Positions 6,541 through 15,266 of a stretch of 64,000 bases of DNA are shown in pieces. The stretch is taken from the NCBI GenBank assembly GCA_028710885.1, contig JAQTTG010000001.1:496001-560000 (forward strand). Reading direction: 5' to 3'. Source of the DNA: Sulfuricurvum sp. Its GTDB lineage: Bacteria; Campylobacterota; Campylobacteria; Campylobacterales; Sulfurimonadaceae. A program made the position numbers and the translations under genes. Within the stretch, counting starts at the first letter, position 1. Every line of letters begins with the position of its first letter. The notes beneath the pieces are model-generated. The model was not told where the DNA came from, did no database searches, and saw nothing but the letters and a program-made list of their open reading frames with translations.

Positions 6541-6634
6541 ACGGTATGCTCCTGTAAAAATTACTTAAAAAATTATCGCAATTATAGCGCGTTTAGATAG
6601 GATGTTCAAATCATCAAATTCTTTATCACCTGCA

Positions 6635-7930
6635 TCATTTTTGAGCAAAAAACTGAAATTGATGCCGACCGCTATTTTTTGATTTATACATTGCTGAATC
6701 AGCGTTATTAATGAGTCCTTCCGCATCCTCTCCATCTTGAGGAAATATACTAATACCAATACTACATGCACTATAAATTTTTTGGTTGTTTATTATAAAA
6801 GCTTCATCAAAAAGGCGTTGAATCTTTTCGGCAATTTTGCCAAAATAATCCCCATGAGCTCCATTTTCAATAATCAGAACAAACTCATCTCCACCAAAAC
6901 GCGAGAGTGTATCCCCTTTTCGGATCATATTTTTCATCCTGTTTGCCGCTTCCATCAATAATTTATCTCCGCTTGCATGACCGAGGGAATCATTAATCTC
7001 TTTAAAATGGTCTAAATCAATAAAGAAAACAGCAAACATCTCATTGGTACGTTTTTTACGTTCAATCGATTGTTCGAGTCTATCCATCAAGAGACGTCTA
7101 TTCGGTAAATGAGTTAGTGGATCGTGCAGTGAAATATGTGAAAATTTTTCTGTCTCAGCCAAAAGACGATTTTGAGCAGTCAAATATTTAGTAATATCAT
7201 GCGTCATTTCTACATAAGCCGTTATCTCTCCCTCAGCATCTAAGACAGGACGCATATGCACTTCAACATACCGATTATTTCCCTCTTTATTTTTACGAAG
7301 ATGTCTCAATGTTACCGGCTGTTTTATTTTTCGAACACTGCTCATTGGGCATGAACTACCATCCTCTGAACATGCAGGGATATTTTTTTGTGCAAGATTA
7401 AAGCATTTATTAACCAATACCGAATCATCAGCTTGATCTTTTGCCGCCTGATTCATCATCGAAATTGTATAATCAGGTTCGATATAGAGAATAGGATCCG
7501 GAATTCCATCGATCATTGTCTGCATGATTGTACGCGTAGTATTGAGTTGCTTTTCTAAGCTGATAATTTTGGCAGCCTTCTCTAAAACATGCAACAATTG
7601 ATACGGATCCGTCGGCTTGAGAATATAACTATCGACATGCAGTGCGATACTGCGCAGCAGCAAATGGGTATCGCTAAATGCAGAATTAACAATTATCGGT
7701 AAAACTGGATATCTTTGACGTATGTGTGCTATCATCTCCAAACCACTCATTTTAGGGAGTTGTAGATCGGTAATAACAATATCTGGTGTTTGTTTTTCGA
7801 AAAGTTCTATCCCCTCTTCCGCATTACGTGCAACAACTACCTCTTTAAAATAATCACCAAATGCACTGATAAAAGAGCGTATTGTCGGTTCATCATCTTC
7901 GACGTATAACAGTGTCAAAGTTTTAAGCAT
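6635..7930 (-). CDS. Response regulator with PAS and GGDEF domains (diguanylate cyclase)
   Basis: The 431 residues contain a receiver domain (1-120; acidic pocket LLYVEDDE, phospho-acceptor Asp in DIVITDLQLP), a PAS domain (about 125-250) and a GGDEF domain (about 265-425). The catalytic motif RFGGDEF is intact, and an RxxD inhibitory site (RKGD) stands five residues before it, so product inhibition by c-di-GMP is expected. The gene start overlaps the upstream CheB-CheR-kinase gene by 8 bp, which makes that kinase the likely phosphate donor. It is the last gene of the LOV-regulator operon. Confidence 0.9.
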   Translation of the reverse strand: MLKTLTLLYVEDDEPTIRSFISAFGDYFKEVVVARNAEEGIELFEKQTPDIVITDLQLPKMSGLEMIAHIRQRYPVLPIIVNSAFSDTHLLLRSIALHVDSYILKPTDPYQLLHVLEKAAKIISLEKQLNTTRTIMQTMIDGIPDPILYIEPDYTISMMNQAAKDQADDSVLVNKCFNLAQKNIPACSEDGSSCPMSSVRKIKQPVTLRHLRKNKEGNNRYVEVHMRPVLDAEGEITAYVEMTHDITKYLTAQNRLLAETEKFSHISLHDPLTHLPNRRLLMDRLEQSIERKKRTNEMFAVFFIDLDHFKEINDSLGHASGDKLLMEAANRMKNMIRKGDTLSRFGGDEFVLIIENGAHGDYFGKIAEKIQRLFDEAFIINNQKIYSACSIGISIFPQDGEDAEGLINNADSAMYKSKNSGRHQFQFFAQK

Positions 7931-10900
7931 TCACACATCCTGTATTTAACTCTATTTCCGTTTTCATCCCATTTTGAGCCGATTCCATACGAATTAAACC
8001 GTTCATACTGTTTTCGATAATCATCTTGGACATGTACAGCCCTATCCCCGTGCCATCTTTTTTCTCTTTGGTCGTAAAATAGGGTTCAAATGCCCGTTCT
8101 ATCACCTCAGCAGTGGATCCTCCACCGTTATCGGTGATGGTGACGATTGCACGATTTTCTTTGCATAAGATTTGGATATCGATAGACCCATGCTCTATTT
8201 GATTGGTGAGAATAGCATCTTTAGAGTTATTGAGAATATTAATAAGCACTTGGGCAAACTCATTTTCATACCCAAAAATTTCGAGATCATCTTCGCCTGA
8301 TTTTGTGAGTGCTATCCCATGATTTTTAAACGAATCATGGACGAAAGAGATCGTTTTATCAATCACATAAGAGAGTTTAAAACTCATTTTCGCCTTGTTA
8401 GGATTGAAAAAATCACGAAAATCGTCTATCGTGTTGGACATATGCTGAATCGTCTTTTGGGATTCCTCGACAAACGTATGAAAGTCCTCTTTATCAATCG
8501 TATCGGTATTAAACTTTTTATCCACGGCAAAAAGATTCAACGCCAAAGAGTTAAGCGGTTGACGCCATTGGTGGGCGATGTTACCGATCATCTCTCCCAT
8601 ACTCGCAAGTTTAGACTGCTGAAACATTAACTCTTGGTTACGGATAATATCGGTTTTGTCGGTAAAGCCGATGATGACGCCGAAATCATCGCTTGAGAAG
8701 TTGATCGATTTGATTTGAAACCAATAGATACGATTGTCGACAATCAGATCGTATTCCACCTCTGTTTTATTTTGCACCACATTTTTCACGTTCTCAAACA
8801 AATTGGGTATGGATACCAAGGCGTTGATAATAATCTCACTGAGATTGATTTTATGGGTATAGTTAATTTTGAAAAATTTCTCCATCCCTTTGGTGTGGAG
8901 AAACAGATCGAGATTTTTATCCAGAATCAACACCTCGGTATTAATAACCTCGACTACTTTGTTGAGTGCTTCATTGACAAACGCCAACTCTTTGTTTTTG
9001 TGTTCGAGTTCATCATTAACCGTATGAAGCTCTTCATTAGTACTTTGCAGCTCTTCATTCGAGGTTTCAAGCTCTTCGTTGGTACTTTGGAGCTCTTCAT
9101 TCGTACTTTGCAGCTCTTCGTTGGTGCTTTGCAGCTCTTCGTTCGATGTCTCTAGCTCTTCGATCGTAATTTGCAACCGTTCTTTAAGAGCGGTCAACTC
9201 ATTTTCGAGAATGTTGACATCATTGATATCATGCACTTGCATTTGATGGGAGAGGAGAACGGAGCGATCTGTTTCATTGATCTCATCAAACGTAATGAAA
9301 TAACTGTTTTCAGAGAGCTTATTACGTGGAAGAGGGAAAATAGATATTGTAATGTAAACACGATCATCCGTAAGCGGCATAACGCGGATTTTTTTCGAGA
9401 CACTGACACACTCATTTCTCACAGCTTCATTTAACGTCGCTCGCAAATCGAGTCGAAGAAAATCAGCAACCTGCTTATAAATGTCATTCGTTGCAATCCC
9501 GCTGGGATGAGAGATGTATTTATTCTCTCCCTTATAAAACAAAATACCGCCACTCGAATCGACAACAAGGCCATTTTTAGCAAAAAATCCGGCTACGGCG
9601 TTGTTGATAGAGCCGTTAATATCTAACGCATTCACTTCATCCCGTAATTTTCGTGAACCGCGCTGAAAATCTTTTTTTTGAAAATAGGCGAGCGCCTCAA
9701 TATCGACATTACCCATATCGTTGGATTTACGATATATTTTGTACTTGTTCTCGACTATCGTAAAAATAGAGACGAGATTACCGATGGTTTCCGATAACCC
9801 TAAAAACATCAACCCTTGGTAGCGCAGTGCATACGAAAAAATGCTCATTACACGCTGTTGGAGCTCAGAATTAAAATAGATCAAGAGGTTACGACAACTC
9901 ACCAAATCCAAATTTAAAAATGGGGGATCTTTGATGACGTCATGCTTTGAAAAGACGATCATATCCCGAATCGGTTTTATAGGGGTGTATCGGTGGTTAT
10001 TGTTGACAAAATAGGTCGATAGGATGTTTGGATCAATCTCACTGATCTCTTCGGGACTAAAACTTCGGCTACGCGCTTCATCAATCGCCTCTTCACTCAC
10101 ATCAGTTGCAAAAATGGTCACTTTTTTAGTGATCCCCATTTTTTTGAGTATCTCACTGATAACAATCGCCAAAGAGTAGGCTTCATCCCCCGTAGCACAT
10201 GCCGCAACCCAAACACGAAGATGGTTATCGAGTTTCTCCTCTAAAAGATGCTCAACCTCTACGGCTAATGCTCTAAACGCCTCTTTATCACGGAACAAAG
10301 AGGTAACAATAATCAAAAGCTCTTTTTTGAGGTTCATAATTTCAGCAGGGGAACGCTGTAAAAGATCGATGTAATCATTCACGCTTTCGGATTTTGTATC
10401 GATGATTCGACGTTCCAAACGACGGTGGATCGTATTTTCTTTGTAATCGCTAAAGTCGACTTCACTTTTTTGGTTTAGGAGGCGAAACACTTTATCGATG
10501 TTGTCTAACAGATCAAAATGACGATCAAAATATTTCGGATCATCAATCGCATAGGGGATACCTTGCGCTAAGAGTTCTGAGGGGAGGACTGCATCCACTG
10601 CGTGCGTGTCAATAGCCGCTTTTGGCATCGAAAAATATTTGGCATTTTCATTTTCAGCGAGGGCGATACCACCGCTTTGTTTGATCGCTATGATCCCCTC
10701 TGCACCGTCACTCCCCGTTCCGCTGAGGATGATTCCGATTGCTTTTTCTTTTTTTTCCAGTGCCAATGATTTTAAAAACCGATTGACTGAGGGTTTCGGA
10801 TAGGGTTTTAAAGAGGGTTCGACAAGTTTAAAATGACCATCTTCTATCAAAATATCCGAATTTGGAGGACAATAGTAAATATGATCCGCCAAAGGGGTTA

Positions 10901-11126
10901 ATCCATCACTAACCGCAATAATAGGAATTTTTGAAGAGCGTTCCAAAAGCGTCCCGAGCATTGTCGGCTGTTTAGGATCGAGATGCTGAACGATAACATA
11001 GGCGATGCGTTCCGATGGCTCGATATTTTGGATGAATTTTTGCAGTGCTTCAAATCCGCCTGCGCTTGCACCCAATCCCACAATGGTTAAATTGGCATAG
11101 TTCTTATCCACTTTTCTCTTTGCCAT
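7923..11126 (-). CDS. CheB-CheR-coiled coil-PAS-histidine kinase hybrid
   Basis: The 1067-residue protein has a CheB methylesterase domain without its own receiver (1-190; [22 protein letters not shown]), a CheR methyltransferase domain (about 205-480; [20 protein letters not shown]), a linker with heptad-like repeats of E-E-L-Q-S-T-N (about 645-710), a PAS-like domain (720-830), then HisKA (His in [12 protein letters not shown], about 851) and HATPase ([15 protein letters not shown]). There are no membrane segments. CheB/CheR fusions of this type usually serve PAS-linked signalling rather than flagellar chemotaxis. It lies 2 bp after the LOV regulator and overlaps the response regulator gene by 8 bp. 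Confidence 0.9.
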
Positions 11127-11128
11127 CT

Positions 11129-11857
11129 CTATAACATCCTTTTGATTTGTTGAATCAGCTTTTGAATTGCGGTGACATTTTTTTGTACACCTAAATAATA
11201 TTTTAGTTTTTCGGTTTTTTTATCAAAAATAGGACTGATGGTTAACTCGTTAAAAATGAGCTCACCACTTTTGGAGTAGTTGCGAAGTGTCGCGGTAATA
11301 TCTCGCTTTTCACTGATAGCACTTTGAATCTCTTTAAGCGCAATCTGGTCCCGATCCTCACCGTGCAAAAATCGACAATTTCGACCAATCACCTCTTCGG
11401 GTGTATATCCGAACAGTTCACTAAACGCTTCATTGACAAAAATCACTGGGTTATCAGGTAGATTAGGATCAGAAATGGTTATCCCATTTTTCGCTTGATC
11501 GAGGATCTCAAGAACGTAATCAGTGATATCGGGGATATTATCTCGATATTTTTTGAGGACATAACGCCCTCCATAATAATTATTTATACTCAAACAGGGG
11601 ATTCTTTTACGTAGGTTACTAATCAGATTTCGTACATTTTTAGGATTAAACTCTTTTTCATAATCATCCCAAACATGGAAAAAAATATCAACACTACTGA
11701 CAGGTTTATCATGATGATCAATCAATATTTCTAATAGTTTTGTCATACTCGATGTCAGAACTAAAATTTGATTCTCTTCACTGAGTGTCTGTGTCAACGG
11801 ATTCCAATAACATTTATCACATAACTTTATCAGTGTTTTTGTATTCATAACAGCCAT
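11129..11857 (-). CDS. Winged-helix/LOV-domain DNA-binding photoreceptor-like regulator
   Basis: Residues about 15-102 form an OmpR-type winged helix (LTSSMTKLLEIL, VSSVDIFFHVWDD, NVRNLISNLRKRI, GGRYVLKK). Residues about 115-232 are a LOV-type PAS domain: GRNCRFLH carries the photo-adduct cysteine (C161), and the flavin-contact residues N193 (R-N-Y), N203 (F-N-E-L) and Q225 (G-V-Q) are all present. The usual Gln after CRFL is His here. LOV domains bind flavin and form a Cys adduct in blue light. There is no receiver domain, so light or redox state of the flavin may control DNA binding directly. It is the first gene of an operon with a kinase hybrid and a GGDEF regulator. Confidence 0.85.
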   Translation of the reverse strand: MAVMNTKTLIKLCDKCYWNPLTQTLSEENQILVLTSSMTKLLEILIDHHDKPVSSVDIFFHVWDDYEKEFNPKNVRNLISNLRKRIPCLSINNYYGGRYVLKKYRDNIPDITDYVLEILDQAKNGITISDPNLPDNPVIFVNEAFSELFGYTPEEVIGRNCRFLHGEDRDQIALKEIQSAISEKRDITATLRNYSKSGELIFNELTISPIFDKKTEKLKYYLGVQKNVTAIQKLIQQIKRML

Positions 11858-11900
11858 TCTAATACAAAAGTATCTTCAAAGTGCCTTTTTTTCCGCTTTA

Positions 11901-11920
11901 CAAATACGATCAAATACGAC
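11901..11920. promoter_or_regulatory. Tandem 10-bp direct repeat, candidate operator of the LOV operon
   Basis: Two adjacent copies of CAAATACGA(T/C) occur at 11901-11910 and 11911-11920, 44-63 bp upstream of the regulator start. OmpR-type winged helices bind tandem direct repeats spaced about one helical turn, so autoregulation by the adjacent winged-helix/LOV protein is plausible. The rest of 11858-12155 is very AT-rich; TATAAT near 12123-12128 fits a promoter for the divergent gene. Confidence 0.45.
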
Positions 11921-12155
11921 AATACTTAATACAGTATTTTCAAAGCACTTTACTAAAAAATAGTCCAGAAAGTAGGCACAAAATGCATTATCTTATTATA
12001 ATTATAATATTTAACTTAAAGAATATATTTTATATATTTTTAAGTTAATATGCAAATATCTCGCTATATAAAGATAATATATAAAGACATACAATTATGC
12101 TATTATCAGTATCTTAATTTAATATAATTTATAAAAAAACAAAAAGGGGAGTTGT

Positions 12156-15100
12156 ATGGCTTTTCCCAAAAATCAATCATCATTATTCATAAATCATTTA
12201 TGGCAAATGAGTGTTGTGTTCTTGCTTTTCATCTTATCTTTTAGCATATATGTATATTCAGAAAAACAACTGGACCGCGCAAATGAAATGCGGCTGAACT
12301 CTTTTTTACTTGCCAGTGAATTACGGCAATCCTCAGATGATCTTACCCGTATGATCCGTACCTATGCCGCTACTGAAAATATCATATATAAACAACACTA
12401 CCAAGAAATACTCGATATCCGCAATGGGGTAAAACCTCGACCGCTCAATTATCAAAACATCTACTGGGATCTTGTCGGTTTAGACGGAAAACGCCCACGA
12501 AACTTTAGTAATCAAACTATTCCCCTTATCGAAATGATGCGGCAAGCTGGATTTTCCCAAGAAGAATTTGCAAAACTCTCAGAAGCAAAAAATAATTCTG
12601 ATGCATTGACTAAGACTGAATTTACAGCAATGAAGCTAATTGAAGGCAAAGGCACTGATGTCGAAAAAGCCAAACAAAAAGCTAAAGCGCTTGAAATTTT
12701 GCACGATGAAGCGTACCACAAAGCTAAAGCTTCCATCATGCGCCCGATAGATGAGTTCTATATTCTCATGGAAAAGCGCACTGAGAGAGCTGTGCACAAA
12801 GCAGCTCTAATCGCTACTGCCCTTCGAATCATATTTGTAATGATTGGGATAGTTTTGTTTTTTATGCTTTTACGCCTCTATCGAAGTATGCAAATCATAT
12901 TAGGTGGTAGCATTGATGAAGTTCACAATCAAATTTCACGGATTGGAAAAGGTGATTTTTCTGAAACGATACATATTCCAGTCGGTGCTGAAAACAGTAT
13001 TTTAGGATGGCTTAGCGAAACACAACAACGTCTAAAAGAGCTTATAAACCATAACGAACGCCTCAAATTGCTCTATTCTGCTCTCAGTCAATGTAATCAA
13101 GCCATTGTACGATCCAAAAATGAAGAAGAACTTTTCCCAATTATATGCCGTGATGCTGTCAATTTCGGTGGAATGAAAATGGCATGGATCGGTATGAGTG
13201 ATGAAATAACAAAACAAATCAAAGTTGTCAGTTCTTATGGAAACGGAATCGAATATCTTGAAAACATTCAAATTTCTATCGAAGATACTAACCCAACTTC
13301 ACATGGACCGACAGGAAATGCTTTTCATACTGACAAATCGTATTGGTGTCAGGATTTCCTACACAGTGACGCTACTAAACTGTGGCATGAACGAGGAAAA
13401 GCATTTGGATGGGGTTCATCTGCCTCAGTACCTTTGCACTGTAATGGCAAAGTTGTAGGAGTTTTTACCCTCTATGCAGAAGAAGCCAATGCTTTTGATG
13501 ATATAGCGCAAAAGCTTATCGAAGAGATGGCTATGGATATCAGCTATGCACTGGATGGTTTTCAAAGTGAAATAGAACGCAAACGAGTTGAAAATGCATT
13601 ACGCGAAAGTCAGGAACGTCTCGAATCAATCATCTTGAATGAGCCTGAATGTGTCAAACTAATCGGACTTGATGGCAAATTAATCGACATGAATCCGGCA
13701 GGTTTAGCTATGATGGAAGCGGATACGCTTCAAGATGCCCAAAATTACAACTTAAGCAACTTTTTACTGCCGGAGTGGCGAACCCCATTTATAGAAATGC
13801 ATCAATGTGTTATAAACGGAGGAAATGCAAAACTCGAATTTGAGATCCTAGGGCTCAAGGGGACACACCGTTGGTTAGAGACGAATGCAGTTCCAATGCA
13901 TGATGCCAATGGAAACGTTTCTATGCTCTTAGGTATTACCCGTGATGTGACCGAGCGAAAAGAAAATGAAAAACGGATTCACTATCTTGCAAACTTCGAT
14001 GGACTGACCGGCTTACCAAACCGTTCACAACTCGATACCCGCATTAAAGATTTGCTGAGTCTCTCCAAACGCCATCATCGAGATATGAGTGTGATGTTTC
14101 TCGATCTAGACCATTTTAAAGATATCAATGACTCTTTAGGTCATAGTATCGGGGATCATTTATTAGTCAAAGTTGCCAAAAGTTTAGAATCTGTCTTACG
14201 TGAGGAAGATACCATCGCACGTCTTGGAGGGGATGAATTTATAATTTTGCTTCCTAATATCTCCATGAACGGAGCGGCTAAAGTTGCACAAAAGATGTTG
14301 GATACATTAAAAAAATCTTTCCATATTCAAGGGCACGAGCTCAGCATAAGCGGCTCAATCGGAATCGCTTTTTTTCCAAATGACGGCAACGATTTTGAAA
14401 CATTATATAAAAATGCCGATACCGCGATGTATCGAGCCAAACAAGATGGACGTAATGCATTTTGTTTTTTCACTGAAGAGATGCAAAAAAATTCTGTACG
14501 CCATCTTGAACTAGGTAATGCCCTTCGGCATGCACTCGATCGTGATCAATTTGAACTCCATTTTCAACCGCAGTTTTCTGCAAAAGACAAAAGTATCATT
14601 GGGGCAGAAGCTCTTTTACGATGGCATCATCCCGAATTTGGAACTGTTTCTCCCTATGAGTTTATACCGATTGCCGAAGAAAATGGAACAATTTTAGCCA
14701 TAGGAGAATGGGTTCTTAAAACTGCTACATTGGCAGCAAAAAAATGGATGGATCAGGGAATGGCTCCGATCATTGTGGCAGTCAATCTCTCCGCCGTACA
14801 GTTTCGTTCACTCGATCTTCCAAATCTCATTTCCGATATTCTGAAACAAGTAGGGCTTCCTCCTGAGTACTTAGAGCTGGAACTGACAGAGAGTATTGCA
14901 ATGCATGACCCGCATAGTGCAATCAATATTATGAATGATTTGCATAAAAGAGGGATTCGAATGTCAATTGATGACTTTGGTACAGGATATTCTTCTTTGA
15001 GTTATCTCAAAAAATTTAATATCTATAAACTCAAAATTGACCAATCTTTTGTTCGGGATATCAATGTTGATCCAGAGGATAAAGCAATCGTTTCCGCGAT

Positions 15101-15266
15101 TATCAGCATGGCCAAAAGTTTAGGATTACAGACGATTGCTGAAGGTGTCGAGACCATAGGACAACTCGATTATCTCAAACAACAAGGGTGTGATGAAATT
15201 CAGGGATACTACTTTTCAAAACCTCTTCCGATAGAAGAGTTTGAAACATTTAGAAAAGAGTTCTAA
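12156..15266 (+). CDS. Membrane GAF-PAS-GGDEF-EAL c-di-GMP enzyme
   Basis: The 1036-residue protein has two membrane segments (about 15-32 and 212-240) around a periplasmic helical region of about 180 residues, then a HAMP-like linker, GAF (about 305-470), PAS (490-605), GGDEF (about 615-780; RLGGDEF intact, RxxD inhibitory site as REED) and EAL (795-1036; AEALLRW, ELTES, DDFGTGYSSL, KIDQSF all intact). Both synthesis and hydrolysis of c-di-GMP are possible. It is divergent from the LOV operon across a 298-bp AT-rich region. A good AAGGGGAG site precedes the ATG. Confidence 0.9.
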   Translation: MAFPKNQSSLFINHLWQMSVVFLLFILSFSIYVYSEKQLDRANEMRLNSFLLASELRQSSDDLTRMIRTYAATENIIYKQHYQEILDIRNGVKPRPLNYQNIYWDLVGLDGKRPRNFSNQTIPLIEMMRQAGFSQEEFAKLSEAKNNSDALTKTEFTAMKLIEGKGTDVEKAKQKAKALEILHDEAYHKAKASIMRPIDEFYILMEKRTERAVHKAALIATALRIIFVMIGIVLFFMLLRLYRSMQIILGGSIDEVHNQISRIGKGDFSETIHIPVGAENSILGWLSETQQRLKELINHNERLKLLYSALSQCNQAIVRSKNEEELFPIICRDAVNFGGMKMAWIGMSDEITKQIKVVSSYGNGIEYLENIQISIEDTNPTSHGPTGNAFHTDKSYWCQDFLHSDATKLWHERGKAFGWGSSASVPLHCNGKVVGVFTLYAEEANAFDDIAQKLIEEMAMDISYALDGFQSEIERKRVENALRESQERLESIILNEPECVKLIGLDGKLIDMNPAGLAMMEADTLQDAQNYNLSNFLLPEWRTPFIEMHQCVINGGNAKLEFEILGLKGTHRWLETNAVPMHDANGNVSMLLGITRDVTERKENEKRIHYLANFDGLTGLPNRSQLDTRIKDLLSLSKRHHRDMSVMFLDLDHFKDINDSLGHSIGDHLLVKVAKSLESVLREEDTIARLGGDEFIILLPNISMNGAAKVAQKMLDTLKKSFHIQGHELSISGSIGIAFFPNDGNDFETLYKNADTAMYRAKQDGRNAFCFFTEEMQKNSVRHLELGNALRHALDRDQFELHFQPQFSAKDKSIIGAEALLRWHHPEFGTVSPYEFIPIAEENGTILAIGEWVLKTATLAAKKWMDQGMAPIIVAVNLSAVQFRSLDLPNLISDILKQVGLPPEYLELELTESIAMHDPHSAINIMNDLHKRGIRMSIDDFGTGYSSLSYLKKFNIYKLKIDQSFVRDINVDPEDKAIVSAIISMAKSLGLQTIAEGVETIGQLDYLKQQGCDEIQGYYFSKPLPIEEFETFRKEF

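Follow-up and report, generated by a model that had tools for sequence, protein, structure and literature searches.

In EL222 of Erythrobacter litoralis, a LuxR-type helix-turn-helix (HTH) domain is located after a LOV domain, and this direct linkage of LOV to a DNA-binding domain needs no phosphorelay. EL222 binds DNA in a blue-light-dependent manner (PMC4844311). A 2014 census counted approximately 1,390 bacterial LOV proteins, of which 18% carry GGDEF or GGDEF plus EAL domains and eight carry an HTH (PMC4844311). The LOV-activated diguanylate cyclase 8c05 joins LOV and GGDEF in one chain, and the aureochromes of heterokont algae, which are eukaryotic, combine a bZIP DNA-binding domain with a C-terminal LOV domain. 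OmpR/PhoB response regulators act on tandem 11-bp direct repeats, at sites overlapping the -35 region, through a winged-helix fold.

The locus described here lies in a 64,000-nucleotide stretch of a Sulfuricurvum sp. genome, hereafter the window. Three genes on the reverse strand encode a winged-helix-LOV regulator (11129-11857, 242 amino acids as annotated), a CheB-CheR-coiled coil-histidine kinase hybrid (7923-11126, 1,067 amino acids) and a REC-PAS-GGDEF protein (6635-7930), with a 2-bp gap between the first two and an 8-bp overlap between the last two, in the frames and spacing given in a preliminary description of this DNA. The regulator resembles EL222 in its direct fusion of LOV to a DNA-binding domain, but whereas EL222 has a LuxR-type HTH C-terminal to LOV, here a PhoB-type winged helix stands N-terminal to it and a tandem direct-repeat operator is predicted. 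Its domain order recalls that of the aureochromes, although theirs is a bZIP domain in a eukaryotic protein. It shares its fold with the OmpR/PhoB response regulators but lacks the N-terminal receiver (REC) domain of a two-component response regulator; the sensor is instead the C-terminal LOV domain, and thus no phosphorylation is expected. With 8c05 it has in common a LOV domain (40% identity over 129 residues) and a c-di-GMP output, although these are here divided between separate proteins of one operon. We regard it as probable that this is an autoregulated blue-light one-component regulator driving its own kinase/c-di-GMP operon, carried on a cassette that has spread horizontally.

Translation of the regulator probably starts at the second ATG, at 11848, because the ATG at 11857 overlaps a conserved -10-like box and the next one is where the proteins of close relatives start. 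The likely 239-amino-acid form (11129-11848, reverse strand) comprises a winged helix (residues 1-100), a LOV domain (approximately residues 107-226) and a C-terminal helix. Pfam detects Trans_reg_C (30.8 bits against a cut-off of 26.2) and PAS (PAS_9) but no REC domain, in agreement with the OmpR-type DNA-binding domain without a receiver that had been proposed. The four LOV flavin-site residues listed in the preliminary description, C161, N193, N203 and Q225, are correct for the 242-residue ORF and correspond to C158, N190, N200 and Q222 in the 239-residue numbering; the reactive Cys lies within a GxNCRFL motif and is accompanied by the flavin-binding N, N and Q. A dN/dS of approximately 0.04 against relatives indicates purifying selection and an ORF far beyond chance.

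An AlphaFold2 model of the regulator built on 35 relatives (pLDDT 84.8) contains four strands, three helices, a two-strand wing, the LOV core and a final helix, while the pTM of 0.55 for the full model leaves the packing of the winged helix against LOV not firmly defined. The model predicts a LOV fold with flanking helices, matching 9vf7 (Z 20.1, rmsd 1.6 over 131 residues) and, in its LOV part, 8c05 (Z 19). As whole-model fold matches were all filled by LOV chains, the winged helix was also folded and searched alone (pLDDT 90.4), which gave TM values of approximately 0.75 to the DNA-binding domains of PhoB, PhoP, SaeR and OmpR. Its sequence profile matches CssR (9e-8), and both sequence and predicted fold thus place it in the OmpR/PhoB winged-helix family.

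The kinase hybrid, recognized by its Pfam order CheB-CheR-HisKA-HATPase and by its motifs, and conserved beside the LOV gene, has intact active-site motifs for CheB (Ser/His/Asp), CheR, the H-box (H852 in AHQWRQPLN) and the ATP site. Hydropathy analysis found no clear membrane helix in it (top 19-residue window 1.58, within the CheR region), consistent with the soluble kinase described earlier. The REC-PAS-GGDEF protein, defined by Pfam, motifs and conserved order, has a phospho-acceptor at D55, GGDEF at 346 and an RxxD I-site at 337 (RKGD, five residues, GGDEF), and is likely a diguanylate cyclase with a product-inhibition site. Sequence, fold and conserved gene order support both the winged-helix-LOV reading of the first protein and the earlier pairing of kinase and response regulator with a predicted c-di-GMP output. 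In addition, the third protein has three cysteines in its PAS domain, C176, C187 and C194 (CPM), which recur in relatives L106, L107 and L115 and possibly form a metal or redox site.

Immediately upstream lies the proposed operator/promoter GGCACTTTGAAGATACTTTTGTATTAGAAT (11856-11885, reverse strand), in which two ACTT half-sites 11 bp apart are followed in phase by a TAGAAT -10-like box. Eight close cassettes have unrelated flanks, and upstream of them only the approximately 35 bp directly preceding the LOV gene can be aligned, with the shared sequence GRCACTTnnnAGRYACTTTTnnnnTAnAAT. Since the -10-like box stands in phase after the ACTT repeat, the repeat overlaps the -35 position. In pho-box promoters a direct repeat likewise overlaps the -35 position, and the cassette comparison gives the predicted site the tandem direct-repeat layout, with a period of approximately 11 bp, of OmpR/PhoB operators. 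Distant cassettes show the same pattern ahead of their leading gene, whether this is LOV, CheB-CheR or GGDEF-EAL. With a matrix built from clade I only, the best match across the whole locus fell in front of the cassette in 23 of 24 clade I loci (leave-one-out) and in nine of the 11 held-out clade II loci, a twelfth being cut by a contig end, compared with 0 of 36 for a reversed-matrix control. A hand-drawn operator consensus was derived partly from the loci to which it was applied and is not independent of them. Of the 32 regulator-bearing genomes, 17 contain an exact match to the operator pattern, versus 2 of 196 without the regulator, the reversed pattern giving none; these 228 genomes of the family share ancestry, and the counts are therefore not independent events. 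Approximately 6-8 bp separate the end of the -10 box from the ATG in most cassettes that begin with LOV, a short distance that suggests a leaderless message.

G043 has an additional predicted site before an MCP gene, and G405 one before a GGDEF gene. Beside a LOV/phytochrome cassette, a separate copy of the repeat lies at 1593, 49 bp ahead of the MCP gene at L040:2-1543, which suggests light control of taxis. A scan of the source genome found the cassette site to be the only credible copy of the repeat. A local regulon was considered there and rejected, because further sites resembling the repeat with 2-3 mismatches do not outnumber those of the reversed control; the two best of these have no ORF after them on that strand. 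Within the source genome, its own operon appears to be the regulator's only target. Near-identical GACACTT repeats also precede REC-type and other genes (L124, L125 and L127) in G399 and G470, genomes without the LOV regulator, which may mean that a different PhoB-type regulator also recognizes this sequence. It nevertheless seems quite improbable that the repeat belongs to such a response regulator while the LOV protein has other targets, given how strongly exact sites are concentrated in genomes with the regulator and given that the window's genome has no second credible copy.

Searching other genomes for the winged-helix-LOV architecture, a check put forward in the preliminary description, revealed a patchy distribution: 32 of the 228 family genomes carry a full-length relative, and further ones occur in a few Sulfurospirillaceae and in one additional family. 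Beyond Campylobacterota, a single scan of genome contigs returned only LOV-domain relatives and no full architecture. The winged-helix-LOV genes usually adjoin c-di-GMP genes. Of the 36 cassettes compared for gene order, most begin with LOV, followed by CheB-CheR-kinase and finally REC-PAS-GGDEF, to which EAL is sometimes added. In others GGDEF-EAL or CheB-CheR leads and LOV closes the cassette, and a few contain only LOV, next to MCP or PAS genes. A 1,115-amino-acid ORF starting MKILSLDLGVTS, at L041:3231-6578, possibly encodes a Cas9-like protein.

The tight coupling of the regulator gene with those for the kinase and REC-GGDEF protein would also suit a regulator that acts mainly through contact with one of these proteins and not as the operon's transcription factor. 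We judge this very improbable, as several cassettes without a kinase or REC domain still keep the winged helix, LOV and operator, and the recognition helix holds some of the regulator's best-conserved positions.

The residues needed for LOV photochemistry are kept unevenly. All four (C, N, N and Q) are present in 19 of 24 members of the window's clade, while at least one is altered in 17 of 36 relatives despite a kept winged helix, with Gln to Tyr/His and loss of Cys among the changes; standard LOV photochemistry is thus dispensable to the regulator in such relatives. Retention of the protein despite Cys or Gln loss, an NCBIfam match to NifL (below the cut-off) and the three conserved-looking cysteines of the REC-PAS-GGDEF partners would fit a NifL-like sensor of flavin redox or oxygen, with the operon under redox control. 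Such a sensor is unlikely, and for the window's copy light is better supported than flavin redox, because redox sensing alone would not require the four residues that most of its clade keeps and because photolyase and phytochrome genes neighbour sister cassettes. The preliminary description had called a light- or flavin-redox-controlled switch unexpected in a probable chemolithotroph; this goes too far, LOV proteins being common in non-phototrophs, many of them with GGDEF, but LOV fused directly to a DNA-binding domain is rare (PMC4844311). The DNA-binding fusion, not LOV as such, is the unusual feature.

In G305, a photolyase gene lies 54 bp upstream of the cassette on the same strand. No operator site is visible before the ybgA-like/photolyase pair of the source genome. 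A suspicion that the source genome's own photolyase is broken was rejected; the gene is intact (436 amino acids), with the ybgA-like gene upstream.

Phytochrome genes were found in six of 34 regulator-bearing genomes versus none of the 31 others tested, and all six genomes have one phytochrome copy within the cassette. Heme oxygenase was identified by Pfam in two of these cassettes (G368 and G376); G325 and G477 contain comparable reading frames, and several show CEKEPIHIPG, the N-terminal biliverdin-site motif. LOV residues are altered in five of the six phytochrome cassettes (to Ser/Glu, Pro, His, Thr/Tyr, or a stop at the Gln codon), G376 being the one with intact residues. At L109 (G325), whose cassette includes heme oxygenase-like and phytochrome genes, an in-frame TAA falls exactly at the conserved Gln codon of the regulator. 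Most clade II copies have also lost the Gln, in genomes that have no phytochrome. The comparison is suggestive of input swapping from LOV to phytochrome. Only tentatively would we extend this to a movable cassette with a dedicated operator and exchangeable light input, all copies of which feed c-di-GMP and chemotaxis-type signalling: the input would be blue light (LOV) in some copies and red/far-red light (phytochrome and heme oxygenase) in others, and with a phytochrome present the winged-helix protein would keep its DNA-binding half while its LOV domain decays.

Comparison with empty sites places the cassette at approximately 6587-12155, between yebC and a GGDEF-EAL gene. The yebC-flanking site is empty in five congeners (G305, G170, G137, G212 and G288), while in G365 the cassette adjoins the same yebC. 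The divergent GAF-PAS-GGDEF-EAL gene (12156-15266), or another neighbour, adjoins yebC in congeners. CarB is 90-94% identical to that of four congeners without the cassette; in Sulfurospirillum G183, by contrast, CarB is 76% identical, yet the LOV protein is 85% and the kinase 88% identical. In the near relative G305, CarB is 99% identical (over the larger fragment), whereas the first two cassette proteins are only 75-81% identical and the cassette lies elsewhere in the genome. These comparisons point to horizontal spread of the cassette among Campylobacterota, between genera. The transfers are not recent, given that silent sites are close to saturation. No compositional trace of transfer (cassette GC 0.390 versus 0.396 for the window) and no mobile-element borders around the cassette were found. 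Carriage by plasmids or phages was considered and rejected: plasmid matches are to the LOV domain only, none covering 80% of the query, and viral-contig matches are likewise to the LOV domain only, none reaching the winged helix.

In the favoured mechanism, blue light would produce a cysteine-flavin adduct in the C-terminal LOV domain, as its residues and fold suggest, and the adduct would alter dimerization or exposure of the N-terminal PhoB-type winged helix. The winged helix would bind the tandem 11-bp direct repeat that replaces the -35 box at 11856-11885, and the bound regulator would activate, or less likely repress, the operon, probably through a leaderless message. The resulting soluble CheB-CheR-histidine kinase and its presumed REC-PAS-GGDEF partner would then shift c-di-GMP and change sessile or motile behaviour.

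In a literature search of incomplete coverage, we found no description of this winged-helix-LOV protein and no light sensor of this kind for sulfur-metabolising Campylobacterota. The protein represents a rare natural LOV-DNA-binding fusion in bacteria, one for which an operator is predicted and cassette comparison supports autoregulation, and its small size and defined repeat make it a potentially useful optogenetic part. It also makes light control of c-di-GMP in sulfur-metabolising Campylobacterota directly testable.
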